Shown here in pieces: positions 39,599 to 54,556 of a stretch of DNA of 60,049 bases; the first letter of the stretch is position 1; each line of letters opens with the position of its first letter. The stretch is taken from NCBI RefSeq assembly GCF_000472905.1, contig NZ_AXAR01000011.1, forward strand, positions 57,139 to 117,187. Direction: 5' to 3'. The position numbers and the translations under genes are program-made. The notes beneath the pieces are model-generated. The model did no database searches and was not told where the DNA came from. It was given only the letters and a program-made list of their open reading frames with translations. The DNA comes from Alicyclobacillus pomorum DSM 14955 (lineage in GTDB: Bacteria > Bacillota > Bacilli > Alicyclobacillales > Alicyclobacillaceae).

Positions 39599-40162
39599 TC
39601 ATCCTACAGGCAGCGACAATGCGTCAAAGTCGATAAGTTTGCGACTGGCTTCATAAAACGCCTGGCGATCACCGAGGTCGAGTGCGCGGTTGACTTCTTC
39701 CATGAGCATCTCCCGCTGGTAACTTCGTACTGCCTGGTCAATCACCCATTCCGCTTGCATCGTGATTAACTCTCGGACCGCCGGCTCCAACTCGGCTGTA
39801 ACCGTTTCCTCCAAGACGGAAGCATAGGCGGTGCTGGTCGTCCGGTCCTTGAAAAACAGCCCGACGTAAACGTCGTCGTCCGGGTGTTGATACAGGTCCA
39901 GGAACGCTTGTTCGACATCGGTAGACACCGGTTTGTTCCGGCGATAGTAGCGAAATGGTGCGACTTGGACACACGTAGTGGACACGACAATGACACGCGG
40001 CAGTTGACGGAAGTTTTCGACGAAATGGACTCTGCGCAGTAAGTTTTCCCGTGTCATCATGTAGCGCAGGAGCATTTCCGCCTCCCGGCTTTGCAACTGG
40101 TAGTTGCCCAGGAACCAACGCAGAAAGTGTTTCTTTTCGGCGACCGTTACAGTATTGCCCAT
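39599..40162 (-). CDS. ypiB: UPF0302 family protein YpiB
   Basis: A 187-residue protein with the UPF0302 domain, EKKHFLRWFLGNYQLQSREAEMLLRYM and FVENFRQLPRVIVVSTTCVQVAPFRYYR, followed by a short IDEAL-like C-terminal part (about 145-187, VRSYQREMLMEEVNRALDLGDRQAFYEASRKL). IDEAL domains bind other proteins, for example in competence or proteolysis adaptors. The ATG is preceded by GGAGGAG. Order ypiB-ypiF-qcr as in B. subtilis. Confidence 0.9.
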   Translation of the reverse strand: MGNTVTVAEKKHFLRWFLGNYQLQSREAEMLLRYMMTRENLLRRVHFVENFRQLPRVIVVSTTCVQVAPFRYYRRNKPVSTDVEQAFLDLYQHPDDDVYVGLFFKDRTTSTAYASVLEETVTAELEPAVRELITMQAEWVIDQAVRSYQREMLMEEVNRALDLGDRQAFYEASRKLIDFDALSLPVG

Positions 40163-47013: not shown

Positions 47014-47847
47014 CTATACGCCCTGAACGAAACGCCGCTTCGTCTGCGCCATCGCCTCGACGAGTGCTTGTGCAAAATGATACACACATTCTTCGAGGAC
47101 CGAAACCTCTACCGATTCATTTTCTAAATTTTTTTCAATTCTGCGAATGAACGCGCTGCCGACAATCACGCCGTCCGCATAGGTTGCAATGTCTCGTGCC
47201 TGCTCCGGTGTGCTTACGCCAAAGCCGACAGCAACGGGTAACTGGCTGTACTGGCGGGCCGTAGCCACCAGTGATTTCACCCGATCCGACATTTTCGCCC
47301 GCTCTCCGGTCACGCCGAGTGAGGAGACGCAGTAGATGAACCCGCGAGCGTGCGCACAAATGTCGCGAATCCGGTCCTCCCCTGACGTCGGCGCCACCAG
47401 CGGAATGAGGGCGGTGCCATATGCATCCGCCGCCGCTCGGATACTCTCGCTCTCCTCAAACGGAAGATCCGGAACAATGACGCCGTCCACACCCGCGGCC
47501 TGCGCGTCTCGAAAGAAGCGGTCCACCGAATACTGCAGGAGCGGATTGACGTAGGTAAACAAGACTTGGGCGTGATCGCCTTCCTTTCGTAGAGCAGCGG
47601 CGAGTTCAAAGCTGTGCGGCAACTGAAACCCGGCGCGAAGACTCCGCAGCGCGGAATTTTGGATGACAGGGCCATCTGCCAATGGGTCAGAATATGGGGT
47701 TCCGATTTCAATGATGTCGGCACCCGCCCGTAAGACGCTCCGAAACAGGGCCAAAGAATCCGCGAACGTCGGATCACCCGCGTTCAGAAATGGAATCAGT
47801 GCCGCGCGGTCCTGGCGGCGGTAAAACGCGCGTTGAATCCGCTCCAT
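47014..47847 (-). CDS. trpA: Tryptophan synthase alpha chain
   Basis: A 277-residue TIM-barrel subunit that cleaves indole-3-glycerol phosphate. LIPFLNAGDPTFADSL, the catalytic Glu in IIEIGTPYSDPLADGPVIQ, the Asp in GVDGVIVPDLPFEES, GFIYCVSSLGVTGER and VAVGFGVSTPEQ with IVGSAFIRRI are present. Start at ATG 47847, just past the trpB stop and after AGGGGG. The longer frame upstream is a shadow of trpB. Confidence 0.95.
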   Translation of the reverse strand: MERIQRAFYRRQDRAALIPFLNAGDPTFADSLALFRSVLRAGADIIEIGTPYSDPLADGPVIQNSALRSLRAGFQLPHSFELAAALRKEGDHAQVLFTYVNPLLQYSVDRFFRDAQAAGVDGVIVPDLPFEESESIRAAADAYGTALIPLVAPTSGEDRIRDICAHARGFIYCVSSLGVTGERAKMSDRVKSLVATARQYSQLPVAVGFGVSTPEQARDIATYADGVIVGSAFIRRIEKNLENESVEVSVLEECVYHFAQALVEAMAQTKRRFVQGV

Positions 47848-47849
47848 GG

Positions 47850-49049
47850 TCACTTTCCCCCTGTCCTTTGAGCAAGTTGGTCGACGTCTTTGTCCCCGCG
47901 CCCGGAGAGGCACACCACAATCACCTGATCTTTGGACATCCTTGGCGCTTCCTTGATGGCCTCGGCGACAGCATGTGCGCTTTCCAACGCCGGAATGATG
48001 CCCTCCAGTCGCGTCAGCGTGGAAAACGCTTCGAGCGCTTCGTCGTCCGTAATGGGAACGTACGTGGCTCGGCCAGAGTCGTGTAACCAGGCGTGTTCCG
48101 GCCCAATGCCGGGGTAGTCGAGACCTGCGGAGATGGAGTGCGCAGGCGTCACTTGTCCATATTCGTCCTGCAGCAAATACGTGAGCGATCCGTGCAGTAC
48201 ACCGGGCCGCCCCTTCGCAATGCTGGCCGCGTGCTTCTCGGTGGTGATGCCGTGACCTGCCGCTTCCGTGCCGACCAACCGGACCGAAGTGTCTTCCAGG
48301 AATGGGTAGAACATGCCCATGGCGTTGCTGCCACCCCCGACGCATGCAATGACCACGTCTGGCAGCCGTCCTTCCAGTTCCAGGCACTGCGACTTCGTCT
48401 CGTCGCCAATCACGCGCTGAAAGTCGCGGACCATCATGGGATATGGGTGAGGTCCGACGACAGAGCCAATGATGTAGTACGTGTCTTCTACATGCTCCAC
48501 CCAGTGGCGGATGGCTTCATTCGTGGCGTCCTTCAAAGTGCGGGTTCCGGACGTTGCTGGGACCACTTCCGCACCCAGCATCCGCATCCGGAATACGTTC
48601 AACGCTTGCCGCTTCATGTCTTCCTCGCCCATAAACACGGTACATTCCAGCCCGAACAAGGCTGCCACGGTGGCGGTTGCTACGCCGTGCTGACCAGCGC
48701 CCGTCTCTGCAATCACACGTTTCTTCCCCGTGTGCACGGCCAGCAGGCCTTGGCCGAGCGTGTTGTTGATTTTATGAGCACCTGTGTGGTTCAGGTCTTC
48801 CCGTTTGAGGTAAATCTTCGCGCCACCGAGTGCCTCCGTCAGACGTTTCGCAAAGTACAGTGGCGTGGGGCGGCCGGAGTAGTACGCGAGATAATACTGC
48901 AGTTCCCGCTGAAACGACGCATCGCCGGACAGGCGTCGGTAGTCCTGCTCCAACTGGTGTAGTGCGGACATCAGTGTCTCTGGAACATACCGTCCGCCAA
49001 ACGGTCCGAAACGGCCATGTACGTCAGGATACGTTGCTTTGCTGCTCAC
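47850..49049 (-). CDS. trpB: Tryptophan synthase beta chain
   Basis: A 399-residue PLP enzyme condensing indole with serine. [16 protein letters not shown] at the N-terminus, [20 protein letters not shown] with the PLP Lys, [37 protein letters not shown] (phosphate-binding glycines, written [10 protein letters not shown]) and the C-terminal [13 protein letters not shown] are visible. GTG start within the end of trpF (26-base overlap), so it is coupled to trpF. It has the usual length. Confidence 0.96.
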
Positions 49050-49716
49050 TACGGCTCACCGCCTTTATCAGTTCGATGATTTTGTTCGGGTCTTTCCGCC
49101 CGGCTCGCTCCACACCAGAAGATACATCGATGCCGTACGGCCTGAAGTTGGACAGTAGCGACTGGACGTTATCCGGCCGTATGCCGCCCGCCACCCAGAG
49201 CGGCGGGAGCGATGCTCCTTCACACGCGGCGGCCATCTCTTTTAGAATGGACCAATCCCAGGCGACGCCGTGTCCTCCAGACACGCTACCCGCTTCCTTG
49301 GGCGGCGCCGCATCCAACAATATGGCGTCCACAACTTCTGCGTACTGGAGGACGCGTTCAGCCAGCCTGTTGACATCTGCATGCTGCAACGGAACACAAA
49401 TGGATTTCCAGACGGTTCGCCCCTGTTCTCGCAACTGGCGGCAGTCCGATGGCGTCTCATTCCCGTGCAACTGAGCGACTTCCAACCGCGCGGTTTTCAT
49501 GATGGCATCTACCGTTGACACCGACGCGTTGACAAACACCCCGACGCTTTTCACGGTGTCCGAAGGTACCGTTCGCACCATGTCGCCGACGGCGCTCGGT
49601 TCGACGTATCTTCGACTCTGCGGAACCAACACGAAGCCAATGTGCGTCACCACTTTGTCTGCAGTAAAACGGAGATCATCTCCGGGGCGCAAGCCGCAAA
49701 TTTTCACACACGTCAT
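49024..49716 (-). CDS. trpF: Phosphoribosylanthranilate isomerase
   Basis: A 230-residue TIM barrel for the third step of tryptophan synthesis. [13 protein letters not shown] with the catalytic Cys, [42 protein letters not shown], the catalytic Asp in ILLDAAPP and [11 protein letters not shown], then [17 protein letters not shown] are present. The start overlaps the trpC stop by ATGA. The C-terminal tail overlaps trpB. Confidence 0.95.
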
Positions 49717-50528
49717 CCCGAAACACTCCGTTGTTCTAATTTTGCGGTGACTCCGCAGAGTTCCTGAACTTTCTGCGCCGCGTCCTCTGGATGGCCCGTT
49801 CTCATCAGGGACTCGCCCACGAGAATGCCACTCGCGCCGTACGACAACATGAGCTGGGCATCCTCTGCGCTGTGCACACCGCTTTCCGCAATCACCAGTT
49901 GACCTTTGGGTGTCTCTCGGATCACATCTCTCGTGGTGTTGAGGTCCACTTCGAACGTGTGCAGGTTCCGGTTGTTGACACCAAGCACCGAAGGATTGGC
50001 CTTCAACGCAGCGTCCAGCTCCGACAACGCGTGCACTTCTATCAGAACATCCAGGCCAATGGACTGTGCGTAGGCGGACAGTTCAACCAGTCGATTTGGC
50101 TCCAGGGCCGCCACAATCAACAGCACCGCGTCTGCTCCAGCCAGCCGCGCCTCCGCGATTTGCAGCTCATCGATGATGAAGTCTTTGCGCAACACCGGTA
50201 GATTCACGTGCGCGCGAATGTCGCGTAAATCCTTCAGGGAGCCCTGGAAGTAGCGTGTATCCGTCAGTACGGAAATGGCTGATGCACCACCCCGCTCATA
50301 CGCAGACGCCATGGTGACCGGGTCCAACTCAGGGGCAATGGGGCCCTTCGATGGACTCGCCTTCTTGAACTCCGCGACAACCGCCAGTCCGGCTGCACGA
50401 CGAATGGAGGATTGAAATCCCCTGCAGGGCGGTAAGTTCGACAGAGCGGACAAGTCGATGGATTGACTTTTCAATTGGGACACTTCTTCGCGCTTCGTCT
50501 CAAGGATCCTGGGCAAGAAGTCGGTCAT
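49713..50528 (-). CDS. trpC: Indole-3-glycerol phosphate synthase
   Basis: A 271-residue TIM barrel. ILETKREEVSQLK at the N-terminus, LAVVAEFKKASPSKGPI with the catalytic Lys, YERGGASAISVLTDTRYFQGS, LPVLRKDFIIDELQIAEARLAGADAVLL, VLIEVHALSELDAAL, LGVNNRNLHTFEVDL and IAESGVHSAEDA are all conserved. The ATG overlaps the trpD stop by ATGA. Confidence 0.96.
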   Translation of the reverse strand: MTDFLPRILETKREEVSQLKSQSIDLSALSNLPPCRGFQSSIRRAAGLAVVAEFKKASPSKGPIAPELDPVTMASAYERGGASAISVLTDTRYFQGSLKDLRDIRAHVNLPVLRKDFIIDELQIAEARLAGADAVLLIVAALEPNRLVELSAYAQSIGLDVLIEVHALSELDAALKANPSVLGVNNRNLHTFEVDLNTTRDVIRETPKGQLVIAESGVHSAEDAQLMLSYGASGILVGESLMRTGHPEDAAQKVQELCGVTAKLEQRSVSG

Positions 50529-51562
50529 TGGGCCACCTCCGCTTGTGCCGCGTATCGGTTGGACGCTACAGCGACTCGTTGCAGCGCAGCAGACACCGCC
50601 CCACTGTCCAGCAACCGCTCAGCCAATCGCACGCCTTCTGCGATGCTGGTGACCTTGCCGCCAACGTACAGCGCCGCACCGGCATTGAGTACGACGACAT
50701 CGCGCCGAGGCCCCCGTTCCCCATCGAAGACGCGGCGCAGGATGCTCGCGTTCTCTGCCGCGTCACCGCCTTCCACCGCGGACAGTGGAGCGGTCGGTAA
50801 CCGGAAATCGGAAGGATGCACCGTGTAGCGGGTCACGCGACCGTGTTTCACTTCGGCGACTTCCGTCGGGCCCTGTAGAGAAAACTCGTCGATGCCGCCG
50901 TCACCGTGGACGACGAGCGCGTGCTCAGTGCCGAGCTGTCCCAATGCCTCGGCGACCTTCTCGACGAGGTCAACACGGTACACGCCGAGCACCTGGCGCG
51001 TCGCGCCCGCGGGGTTGGTCAGCGGGCCCAGAATGTTGAACACGGTGCGGAATCCAAGTTGTTTGCGCGGTTCTGCTGCGTGTTTCATTGCCGGATGGAA
51101 GTGCTGTGCGAAGAGGAAACAAAGATTTGCTGCTTGTAAGCACTCGAGCGCTGCTTCAGGGGACAACTCAAGGTGGATGCCAAGCGCCGCGAGCACATCG
51201 GCACTGCCACTTTTGCTGGACACGGCACGATTGCCGTGTTTGGCGACCTTCACGCCAGCGGCTGCACACACGAACGCGGTCGCCGTGGAGATGTTGAATG
51301 TATTCGCGCCATCGCCACCTGTTCCGCACGTGTCCAACACGGGGAACGGAGGATTGAGTCGCACACTGTTTTTCCGCATAGCTCTGGCGAAACCGACAAT
51401 TTCCGATACTGCTTCCCCCCGTACTGCCAGGGCAGCCAGCAATCCGGCCGTCTGCACAGGGGTAATTTCACCGTTCATGAGGGCATCCATGAACGCCTCC
51501 GCCGTTTCCGCGGTCAAAATGTCACCTGACGAGACGGCTTTCAATACGTCCTTGACCACCAT
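50525..51562 (-). CDS. trpD: Anthranilate phosphoribosyltransferase
   Basis: A 345-residue enzyme, first gene of this trp unit. The helical N-terminus and PVQTAGLLAALAVRGEAVSEI, the catalytic DTCGTGGDGANTFNISTATAFVCA, KHGNRAVSSKSGSADVLAALG, ALVVHGDGGIDEFSL and VVVLNAGAALYVGG match TrpD. ATG at 51562 after AGAGGAG. The open frame runs upstream into the trp leader but has no start there. No trpE precedes it. Anthranilate must come from trpE/trpG elsewhere. Confidence 0.95.
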   Translation of the reverse strand: MVVKDVLKAVSSGDILTAETAEAFMDALMNGEITPVQTAGLLAALAVRGEAVSEIVGFARAMRKNSVRLNPPFPVLDTCGTGGDGANTFNISTATAFVCAAAGVKVAKHGNRAVSSKSGSADVLAALGIHLELSPEAALECLQAANLCFLFAQHFHPAMKHAAEPRKQLGFRTVFNILGPLTNPAGATRQVLGVYRVDLVEKVAEALGQLGTEHALVVHGDGGIDEFSLQGPTEVAEVKHGRVTRYTVHPSDFRLPTAPLSAVEGGDAAENASILRRVFDGERGPRRDVVVLNAGAALYVGGKVTSIAEGVRLAERLLDSGAVSAALQRVAVASNRYAAQAEVAQ

Positions 51563-51614
51563 GTGCCTCGACTCCTCTCTGCTCAACTCGTCGCGTCGTC
51601 GCCTGCCGTCGGAG

Positions 51615-51658
51615 AAAAAACAAAATCCACAGGACCAGGCGTCGCCCAACCTGCGGAT
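51615..51658 (-). terminator. trp attenuator terminator
   Basis: On the minus strand ATCCGCAGG pairs with CCTGTGGAT (51650-51658 and 51625-51633, one G-U), with an inner GGGCG/CGCC, followed by TTTTGTTTTTT. It lies 53 bases before trpD and after the TRAP site, so it should stop transcription when TRAP is bound. A separate ATCCCA/TGGGAT pairing (51696-51701 with 51664-51669) lies between. Confidence 0.85.
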
Positions 51659-51701
51659 GCAGTATCCCAGAGTTCGTTTGCGAAACAAATAGACGTGGGA
51701 T

Positions 51702-51762
51702 CTCGTTCCTCCGCTCGGCTCTACTCCATCTCATCTCTCAGCGACTGCACTCGACTCAACTC
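51702..51762 (-). promoter_or_regulatory. TRAP-binding site in the trp leader
   Basis: Read on the minus strand, eleven triplets, ten GAG and one CAG, appear in 61 bases. Most are separated by two to four bases (five in one place). Their plus-strand positions include 51760-51762, 51755-51757, 51750-51752, 51745-51747 (CAG), 51737-51739, 51730-51732, 51724-51726, 51719-51721, 51714-51716, 51709-51711 and 51702-51704. This is the layout bound by the eleven-subunit trp RNA-binding attenuation protein. Confidence 0.88.
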
Positions 51763-51832
51763 AGCAATTTGCAACCCGACGACGAATCCGTCATTTTGCA
51801 AATCACTCAACTACGAAAACTTATTGTGTTCC

Positions 51833-51861
51833 ATATTACGAGTTGTTGGCCATTTCGTCAA
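51833..51861 (-). promoter_or_regulatory. Sigma-A promoter of the trpDCFBA unit
   Basis: TTGACG (51856-51861) and TAATAT (51833-51838) with a 17-base spacer on the minus strand, just after aroH. The leader before trpD is then about 265 bases and contains the TRAP site and attenuator. Confidence 0.85.
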
Positions 51862-51880
51862 CAGACATGTGCAAAATATG

Positions 51881-52252
51881 CTACTTTGCATCGGCTACGT
51901 CTGGGCGCAGCCGAACGGCGTCACCAAGATACACGTGCTGAATGTCCTGCTGAGACTTCTCTGTGTTGACATGGACCAGCACGCGAATACACAATGGCAT
52001 GGCTCCCGGCACGCTGATTTCGGTGGCGCACATCAGGGGCACCCACTGCCAGCCCTCAATACTGCGAACAGCCTTGGCCGGAAAGTCCGCATTCAAGTCG
52101 GGCGTCATGGTGAGCAAGACGCTCGCTACGTGATTCACGTCCAAGTCATTGCGCATAATGAGGGTCTCCATCAATTGCCGCGTCGCGCGAAATATCGCCT
52201 CCGGCGTATTCTCGTCCACAGTGACCGCACCGCGGATTCCGCGTACTAACAT
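51881..52252 (-). CDS. aroH: Chorismate mutase, AroH type
   Basis: A 123-residue AroH-fold chorismate mutase making prephenate from chorismate. RGIRGAVTVDENTPEAIFRATRQLME with the catalytic Arg, VASVLLTMTPDLNADFPAKAVR, WVPLMCATEISVPGAMPLCIRVLVH with the active-site Cys and Glu are family blocks. The ATG at 52252 lies six bases after GGGGG and overlaps the aroB stop. Its product feeds tyrA in the same cluster. Confidence 0.94.
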   Translation of the reverse strand: MLVRGIRGAVTVDENTPEAIFRATRQLMETLIMRNDLDVNHVASVLLTMTPDLNADFPAKAVRSIEGWQWVPLMCATEISVPGAMPLCIRVLVHVNTEKSQQDIQHVYLGDAVRLRPDVADAK

Positions 52253-53352
52253 GTCCATCCCCCATTCTGATGTACATCCGTCCAGGCACGGGCCACTTCG
52301 TCATATGTCGCGTCGCGCACCACGACGACTTCCCCAATCCCTTTGGGAAGCGCAAACCTCCAGCCCTCACTCGTATGCTTCTTGTCATGCCGCAAGTACT
52401 CCATCACTTCCGCGAGCGGAAAGTCCGCCGTTCTCAGGGGAAGACCATGCGCCTGAAGCGCGGCAAAGATCTGATCTCTCTCGGTTGTGGAAACCAGGCC
52501 GCGATGCACTGCCATCTGCGTCTCGACGGCAATGCCGATGGACACCGCCTCTCCGTGATTGAGTTGGTAGTGTGAGTATTGTTCCACGGCGTGTCCGACC
52601 GTGTGACCGAGGTTCAACTTCATGCGTTCTCCGCTTTCCCGTTCGTCTCGCTCCACAACGGCCACTTTCACCGCGCAGGCACGCGCCAGCAAGGTTTCCG
52701 TCGGAGCGGGCCCAGGATAACAGGTGAGCGGAGCGCGGAGGAGTTCCCGGAACAATTCCGCGTCTCCAATCAAACCGTGCTTGATCACCTCGGCCATTCC
52801 TGCCGCCCACTCCCGCGCAGGAAGGGACGCCAGCAGACTCACGTCGAACATGACGGCCAACGGTTGGTGAAACGCGCCCACCAGATTCTTGCCGCTTCGC
52901 AGGTTGATCCCCACCTTGCCGCCGATACTGCTGTCGTGGGCGAGCAAAGTGGTCGGCAACTGGATGAATGGAATCCCGCGGTAGTACGTCGCGGCCACGA
53001 ACCCGGCCAGGTCACCCACTACGCCGCCTCCTAATGCCAGGACGATGCCGTTACGTGGAATGCCCGCCTCTACCATTGCCTCGTACAGCCGCTCTGCGGT
53101 CGCCAGCGATTTGCTCGCGTCCGTCGGCGCCACAACCGCCTTGTGCAGCACGTATCCCGCTTTCCTGCAACTCTCTGCCGCATGGTCTGGGTAGCCAAGG
53201 CGCGCCAGGTTTTCATCGGTGACGAGAAACAGTGGACGACTCGTGGTGACGCCGAGTTCCTGTAGTTGCTGGCCAAGTTCGTCCAGCAACCCGTCCGAAA
53301 ACAGCACCGGATACGCCGCAGACCCCGTACGAACTGTCAGGCGCGCCGTCAT
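52246..53352 (-). CDS. aroB: 3-dehydroquinate synthase
   Basis: A 368-residue NAD/zinc enzyme of the shikimate pathway. LFLVTDENLARLGYP, the NAD-binding LALGGGVVGDLAGFVAATYYRGI, QLPTTLLAHDSSIGGKVGINL, KNLVGAFHQP and the metal His in LNLGHTVGHAVEQYSHYQLNHGEAVSIG are all present. Start at ATG 53352, overlapping the aroC stop as ATGA. Confidence 0.96.
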   Translation of the reverse strand: MTARLTVRTGSAAYPVLFSDGLLDELGQQLQELGVTTSRPLFLVTDENLARLGYPDHAAESCRKAGYVLHKAVVAPTDASKSLATAERLYEAMVEAGIPRNGIVLALGGGVVGDLAGFVAATYYRGIPFIQLPTTLLAHDSSIGGKVGINLRSGKNLVGAFHQPLAVMFDVSLLASLPAREWAAGMAEVIKHGLIGDAELFRELLRAPLTCYPGPAPTETLLARACAVKVAVVERDERESGERMKLNLGHTVGHAVEQYSHYQLNHGEAVSIGIAVETQMAVHRGLVSTTERDQIFAALQAHGLPLRTADFPLAEVMEYLRHDKKHTSEGWRFALPKGIGEVVVVRDATYDEVARAWTDVHQNGGWTC

Positions 53353-54506: not shown

Positions 54507-54556
54507 CAGGCGTTCGTCCTCTCTCCAGTCTCTTCTCTGCTCAGTACGTTTTGATA

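Follow-up and report, generated by a model that had tools for sequence, protein, structure and literature searches.

How does a tryptophan operon that starts without trpE come under tryptophan control, and is anthranilate synthase then left to a different regulator? These questions are raised by the intergenic stretch between aroH and trpD of Alicyclobacillus pomorum DSM 14955, which lies within the window analyzed here—60,049 nucleotides of contig NZ_AXAR01000011.1. Attenuation under protein control has its textbook example in the trp RNA-binding attenuation protein (TRAP), which is known largely from Bacillus. Two accounts (PMC11255114, PMC4347634) describe how it acts: by attenuation, by inducing a hairpin on the trpE Shine–Dalgarno sequence (SD), or by a direct block at trpG, trpP, and ycbK. 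The open reading frames (ORFs) of the window support an operon trpDCFBA with trpD as its first gene and without trpE. Our preferred reading—to which we assign a probability of roughly 0.8—is that the trpD leader combines TRAP attenuation with direct occlusion of the trpD SD through two putative TRAP sites, and that it belongs to a split regulon.

On the minus strand, the aroH–trpD stretch displays, in this order, a promoter-like site, a 5′ stem-loop, a distal triplet array, a hairpin with T run, and a proximal array (Table 1). No Rfam family was found at its gathering score within positions 40000–60049 of the window.

Table 1. Features of the trpD leader and its surroundings in the window
Feature	Coordinates	Strand	Remarks
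trpC, trpF, trpB, trpA	47014–50528	−	ORFs; named from recognized sequence, no family search
trpA	inside long ORF 47014–48387	−	
trpD, first gene of the operon	50525–51562	−	start ATG at 51562
Proximal TRAP array (putative)	51567–51589	−	five GAG, exact 2-nt spacers, over the trpD SD
Terminator	51615–51658	−	hairpin 51658–51625 and T run 51624–51615; by folding
Candidate antiterminator	51648–51720	−	predicted pairing
Distal TRAP array (putative)	51702–51762	−	11 NAG triplets; shuffle statistics and mtrB in the genome
5′ stem-loop	51763–51807	−	predicted fold; 12-bp outer stem, ends directly at the first triplet
Promoter-like site	51833–51861	−	TTGACG-17-TAATAT, 9/12 matches
aroH	51881–52258	−	neighbor upstream of trpD, kept there in 39/41 family genomes
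Weaker candidate third TRAP site before aroC	54519–54542	−	GAGcaGAGaaGAGactgGAGaGAG; 16/3000 shuffles

Several of these elements had already been proposed by a sequence-only reading of the locus. Its sigma-A promoter can be recognized at 51861–51833—one such promoter-like site was found before trpD, the shuffle mean being 0.3. Its eleven GAG-like triplets are upheld as well: the distal array comprises ten GAG and one CAG, the first bases of which run from 51762 to 51704, and its chain score of 8.0 was reached by 0/2000 dinucleotide shuffles of the leader. No other chain on either strand of the 60 kb window scores as high, and the maximum over 100 shuffles of the whole window was 4.70. Known TRAP sites have 9–11 triplets, as stated in an excerpt of PMC4347634, and the distal array with its 11 triplets lies within this range. 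Its spacers (2, 2, 2, 5, 4, 3, 2, 2, 2, and 4 nt) are irregular compared with the textbook 2–3 nt, whereas those of the proximal array are all 2 nt. Both the stem-loop touching the distal array and the proximal array itself had been overlooked. In the predicted fold, the distal triplets are partly paired with a mean unpaired probability of 0.46 to 0.65 depending on transcript length, and folding—suggested earlier as a check of their accessibility—hence depicts them as neither clearly accessible nor clearly buried. The complete trpD leader folds no better than its shuffles (z 0.75).

The claim of a TRAP-type leader is supported by a single mtrB in the genome (PF02081, E = 2.3e-33, above cut-off; G000:C7:67662-67859), positioned between hbs and hepS. 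Residues 33–98 of this ORF are close to solved TRAP chains—15 solved TRAP sequences were matched—and alignment to these chains shows conservation of the residues that we take to mediate RNA contact and to form the tryptophan pocket. The EKLD and K-x-R motifs are retained in 31/31 mtrB loci examined; one TRAP (L164) carries Leu in place of a conserved Phe. A search for anti-TRAP (rtpA), which had likewise been proposed, found no gene in this genome (PF15777, E 0.001), the model being not very specific, as its matches include three further control genomes besides B. subtilis.

The sequence-only reading had further placed trpE and trpG elsewhere, and had expected tryptophan to control only the later steps, with anthranilate synthase regulated separately. 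The former is borne out; the latter, if taken to mean a different regulator, is not supported in view of the trpG–trpE leader. Three chorismate-binding genes are found in the genome, one of which is trpE, preceded by trpG. The other two resemble, by eye, a pabB–pabC fusion and a menF-type gene. The fusion-like gene (L003, G000:C34) is a long ORF in which a C-terminal extension adds to the chorismate-binding part, and this apparent pabB–pabC fusion argues for trpG–trpE as a dedicated pair. At the separate trpG–trpE locus, the trpG leader adjoins a tRNA cluster on its upstream side and bears its own array of ten triplets (score 7.5, 0/2000 shuffles) as well as a terminator (9766–9743 of L005). 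A promoter, TTGACG-17-TAAGCT, is readable by eye and was not reported by the scan. Since the trpG–trpE leader carries the same type of site, there are likely two RNAs under one regulator, and anthranilate synthase is probably subject to TRAP via this second RNA. A site of this kind near trpG–trpE is what the sequence-only reading had named as supporting evidence.

This arrangement was compared across 41 genomes of the family of the window (Alicyclobacillaceae), covering 16 genera. The nearest gene upstream of trpD is aroH in 39 of them, aroB in 2, and never trpE. In 41/41 genomes, the best chain of the trpD leader exceeds the 95th percentile of 300 shuffles of that leader; for the trpG leader, this holds in 38/39 (200 shuffles; the exception is G026). 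At the second locus, trpG precedes trpE in 39/40 trpE loci examined, and the fortieth is cut by a contig end; for G035, no convincing trpE was found (best match 111 bits). A search for mtrB was successful in 38/41 family genomes, the gene being not found in G034 and G039 (62 and 82% complete) and in G035 (97%). In addition, the mtrB copy of G002 has a broken reading frame (L247, G002:C1:1761000-1763500)—which is either a sequencing error or a recent loss—while its trp arrays are intact. The trpD arrays persist in all four genomes, and such arrays without an intact mtrB either reflect assembly gaps or count against a strict dependence. The highest-scoring trpD-leader array of the family is that of G035.

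The proximal array scores 5.0, which is reached by 3/2000 leader shuffles and exceeds all 100 whole-window shuffles. Across both strands of the window, the distal and proximal arrays rank as the two top-scoring chains. At 51589–51567, the triplets overlap the SD in the manner of an occlusion site of the trpG/trpP type, but five are fewer than the 9–11 expected for such a site. Proximal arrays of at least three triplets overlap the SD in 36 of the 37 family leaders having one. Within the last 45 nt, the trpD starts of 35/41 family genomes score at least 3.0 and those of 22 at least 3.9; for trpG starts, 18/39 and 7/39 attain these scores, and the trpG start of the window genome is without an SD array (0.9). 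As a control, 95 SD-bearing gene starts were taken from ten sequences; a score of about 3 or higher was reached by seven of them, namely five trpD and two aroC starts. Weak proximal arrays (2.0) are present in G006, G038, and G039. The score of 1.0 for G035 is caused by a misplaced start—a run of four GAG ends at an ATG further upstream—and G028 bears eight triplets on the trpD SD with no distal array.

The terminator claimed between the distal array and trpD is present as a hairpin of −20.0 kcal/mol, which is followed by TTTGTTTTTT to 51615; a simple, stricter terminator scan left it unreported (0 found, 0.3 expected). In a candidate antiterminator, bases 51714–51710 of the array (GCGGA) are predicted to pair with 51657–51653 of the terminator 5′ arm (UCCGC), accompanied by a second pairing of 51720–51717 with 51651–51648. 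This segment folds with −23.5 kcal/mol, and with −14.6 kcal/mol when the triplets are masked. Across the family, a loose scan detects a hairpin and T run after the distal array in 24/41 trpD leaders, 21 of which are credible and distributed over 12/16 genera; the loose-scan terminators of G006, G020, and G033 were discounted for hairpin probabilities of at most 0.02. The terminator 5′ arm often reads AUCCGCAGG, and the exact complement of its UCCGC-type five bases is found inside the array, as in GAGcgGAG, in 13/22 leaders. For G027, both partners are altered together (UCCAC with GUGGA). The pairing between array spacers and terminator arm was matched by 0/300 shuffled spacer sets for trpD and 1/300 for trpG, or by 2/300 and 0/300, respectively, if averaged by genus. 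Arrays pair with the terminators of their own leaders only marginally better than with those of other genera (−9.03 vs −8.69 kcal/mol).

Whether these two structures act as a switch was assessed by folding with and without masked triplets. The equilibrium fold of the window leader prefers the terminator whether or not TRAP is present (probability 0.93 and 0.97). Masking raises the terminator probability by more than 0.1 in 2/24 trpD and 7/31 trpG leaders, and lowers it in 0 of the 24 trpD and 2 of the 31 trpG leaders. The equilibrium ensemble does not switch and thus gives no evidence of a thermodynamic TRAP switch; for the candidate antiterminator, which pairs better than spacer shuffles, a kinetic argument is needed. 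To a degree, this likewise applies to B. subtilis, whose attenuator is described in part of PMC3913778 as a weak intrinsic terminator, with TRAP acting more directly.

The connection between triplet arrays and TRAP can also be followed in a wider sample. There, 80 named loci encode a TrpD relative, and 50 genomes were searched for mtrB, which is present in 27 and not found in 23. The leader score—the best chain within 450 nt before trpE, trpG, or trpD—is at least 4.2 in 23/27 genomes with mtrB versus 0/23 without, and the trpD-SD score is at least 2.95 in 14/27 (missing in 13/27) versus 0/23, a contrast that is confounded by phylogeny and includes near-duplicate genomes, so that its p values are overstated. 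Omitting the four family genomes among the 27 leaves 20/23 for the leader and 10/23 for the trpD SD. The SD site at trpD extends beyond the family, being found in Desulfotomaculum-like Bacillota. Five loci of that group (L055, L057, L077, L054, and L090) combine trpE, trpG, and trpD in one operon with arrays ahead of each, the trpD SD included. Another case outside the family is Seinonella peptonophila (L061), where a trpE-less aroB–aroH–trpD order comes with a triplet array before trpD.

For both arrays of the window, we infer binding of TRAP and its dependence on tryptophan, and picture the consequences for termination and translation as follows. When tryptophan is plentiful, TRAP would wrap the distal 11-triplet array. 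The wrapped array would release the 5′ arm of the terminator from the array-made antiterminator, and transcription would end before trpD. If a transcript escapes this stop, its proximal GAG array would be bound by TRAP, which would then cover the trpD SD and block translation. With trpG–trpE at another chromosomal place, bearing its own array and terminator, a single protein would coordinate the split pathway through separate RNAs.

Attenuation could in principle act alone: the distal array would function like its B. subtilis counterpart, and the GAG run would be a purine-rich ribosome site of no regulatory role. GAGAGGAG is indeed a natural extension of an SD, five triplets are few, and the proximal array is missing from 13 of the 27 named genomes that bear mtrB. 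Yet among the 95 SD-bearing starts just trpD and aroC reach a score of about 3, the family trpD starts do so in 35/41 cases, and none of the 23 genomes without mtrB has the proximal array; we consider this explanation improbable. Likewise, the shuffles, the 95-start control, and the co-occurrence with mtrB led us to reject chance or a plain SD as origin of the proximal array. Even further from what we observe is the notion that the arrays are chance purine repeats or serve another RNA-binding regulator. Purine-rich repeats can suit proteins such as CsrA, which recognizes GGA, but the 2-nt period of the triplets, the shuffle controls, and again the co-occurrence with mtrB render this a very improbable alternative.

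More weight is due to the idea that one TRAP ring grips both arrays and thereby clamps the structured middle, the arrays being halves of a single interrupted site. It is favored by genus g2, for which no credible terminator was found between array and trpD in 15 genomes. The trpD leaders of this genus contain 5–7 triplets, a hairpin, and then 2–4 triplets adjoining the start, on the SD. Their triplet totals are 8–10 in 15/15 (nine or ten in 14), and their middle folds with closed ends in 14/15 versus 6.1 expected from shuffles; the trpG leaders show closed ends in 13/15 (6.9 expected) and totals of 9–10 in 10/15. From these counts, the g2 trpD leader looks like one TRAP site that is interrupted by a hairpin and has its second part on the SD. 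For the window, however, the distal array with its 11 triplets can already fill a ring, and the polymerase reaches the proximal array only after the decision on termination has been made. A shared ring is hence unlikely here, and attenuation plus SD occlusion through two sites stays our preferred reading of this leader. A unifying picture for the family, which we advance tentatively and at slightly less than even odds, is that its TRAP sites consist of two blocks separated by a structured insert, with the second block placed on the SD. In most genera, the insert would be a terminator, giving attenuation and SD occlusion; in g2, it would be a plain closed hairpin bridged by a single ring, giving translation-only control in the trpD and most trpG leaders. 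The pathway would be divided between two loci, and some lineages may have a third target in aroC.

This possible third target concerns the array upstream of the aroC start, which follows 12 nt downstream; aroC is the first gene of an aroC–aroB–aroH run. Short aroC arrays were detected in the window genome and a congener, genus g4, and G035 (G016, G020–G022, and G035), with 16, 57, 3, 4, 8, and 88 of 3000 shuffles being as good. Among the 37 aroC leaders as a whole, 7 score at least 3, compared with 7% of shuffles; because of this small excess, the site is kept as a candidate only. TRAP control of the chorismate supply via the aroC array is possible. Genome-wide, the pattern KAGNNKAGNNKAGNNKAG gave 7 matches, three in the trpD leader and one in the trpG leader. 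With the reversed pattern as control, 8 matches were obtained, and on this scale the pattern is thus powerless by itself; the three other matches, located within or close to ORFs that have no link to tryptophan, were set aside. A KAG run (L207, G000:C7:19624) precedes an ORF that resembles, by eye, a group II intron reverse transcriptase, again with no link to tryptophan.

Placed next to known systems, the window leader resembles that of B. subtilis trpEDCFBA in its 5′ stem-loop, its 11 triplets, the competing antiterminator and terminator—predicted here—and the aro–trp neighborhood; it differs in preceding trpD instead of trpE. The B. subtilis logic ascribed to it earlier is retained in the mtrB gene, array, and terminator of a TRAP-type leader; the gene preceded and the irregular spacing depart from that model. 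In its proposed working, the leader joins TRAP attenuation to SD occlusion, and its membership among classical leaders is qualified by these two points. We propose that translation of the first gene is blocked at a second array, which covers the SD; in B. subtilis, by contrast, TRAP binding leads to sequestration of the trpE SD in a hairpin (PMC11255114). Triplets over the ribosome site with a direct block, as proposed here, are described for B. subtilis trpG, trpP, and ycbK in parts of PMC11255114 and PMC4347634. Unlike those sites, the one in the window belongs to trpD, has fewer triplets, and shares its leader with a second, full array and a terminator. Another point of comparison is the trp leader of Bacillus (Halalkalibacterium) halodurans, which stands before trpE in trpEDCFBA. 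Its 19 NAG triplets (PMC3184956) are, similar to the window, in excess of what one 11-mer needs; there, the extra triplets were connected with a TRAP of 12 subunits rather than with an SD site. No account of TRAP sites in Alicyclobacillus, of a TRAP site at trpD, or of a trpD leader with two arrays was found in the open-access papers searched; a prior description, for instance in the older comparative reviews of trp operons, is possible.

If our reading is true, one regulator can unite a split pathway through separate RNAs, and trpD would be a direct translational target of TRAP. TRAP sites would then also come as two blocks parted by a hairpin, which poses the biochemical question if one ring can bridge a site interrupted in this way. 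The 41 family genomes—with and without terminators—would form a natural series in which attenuation and SD occlusion replace each other.
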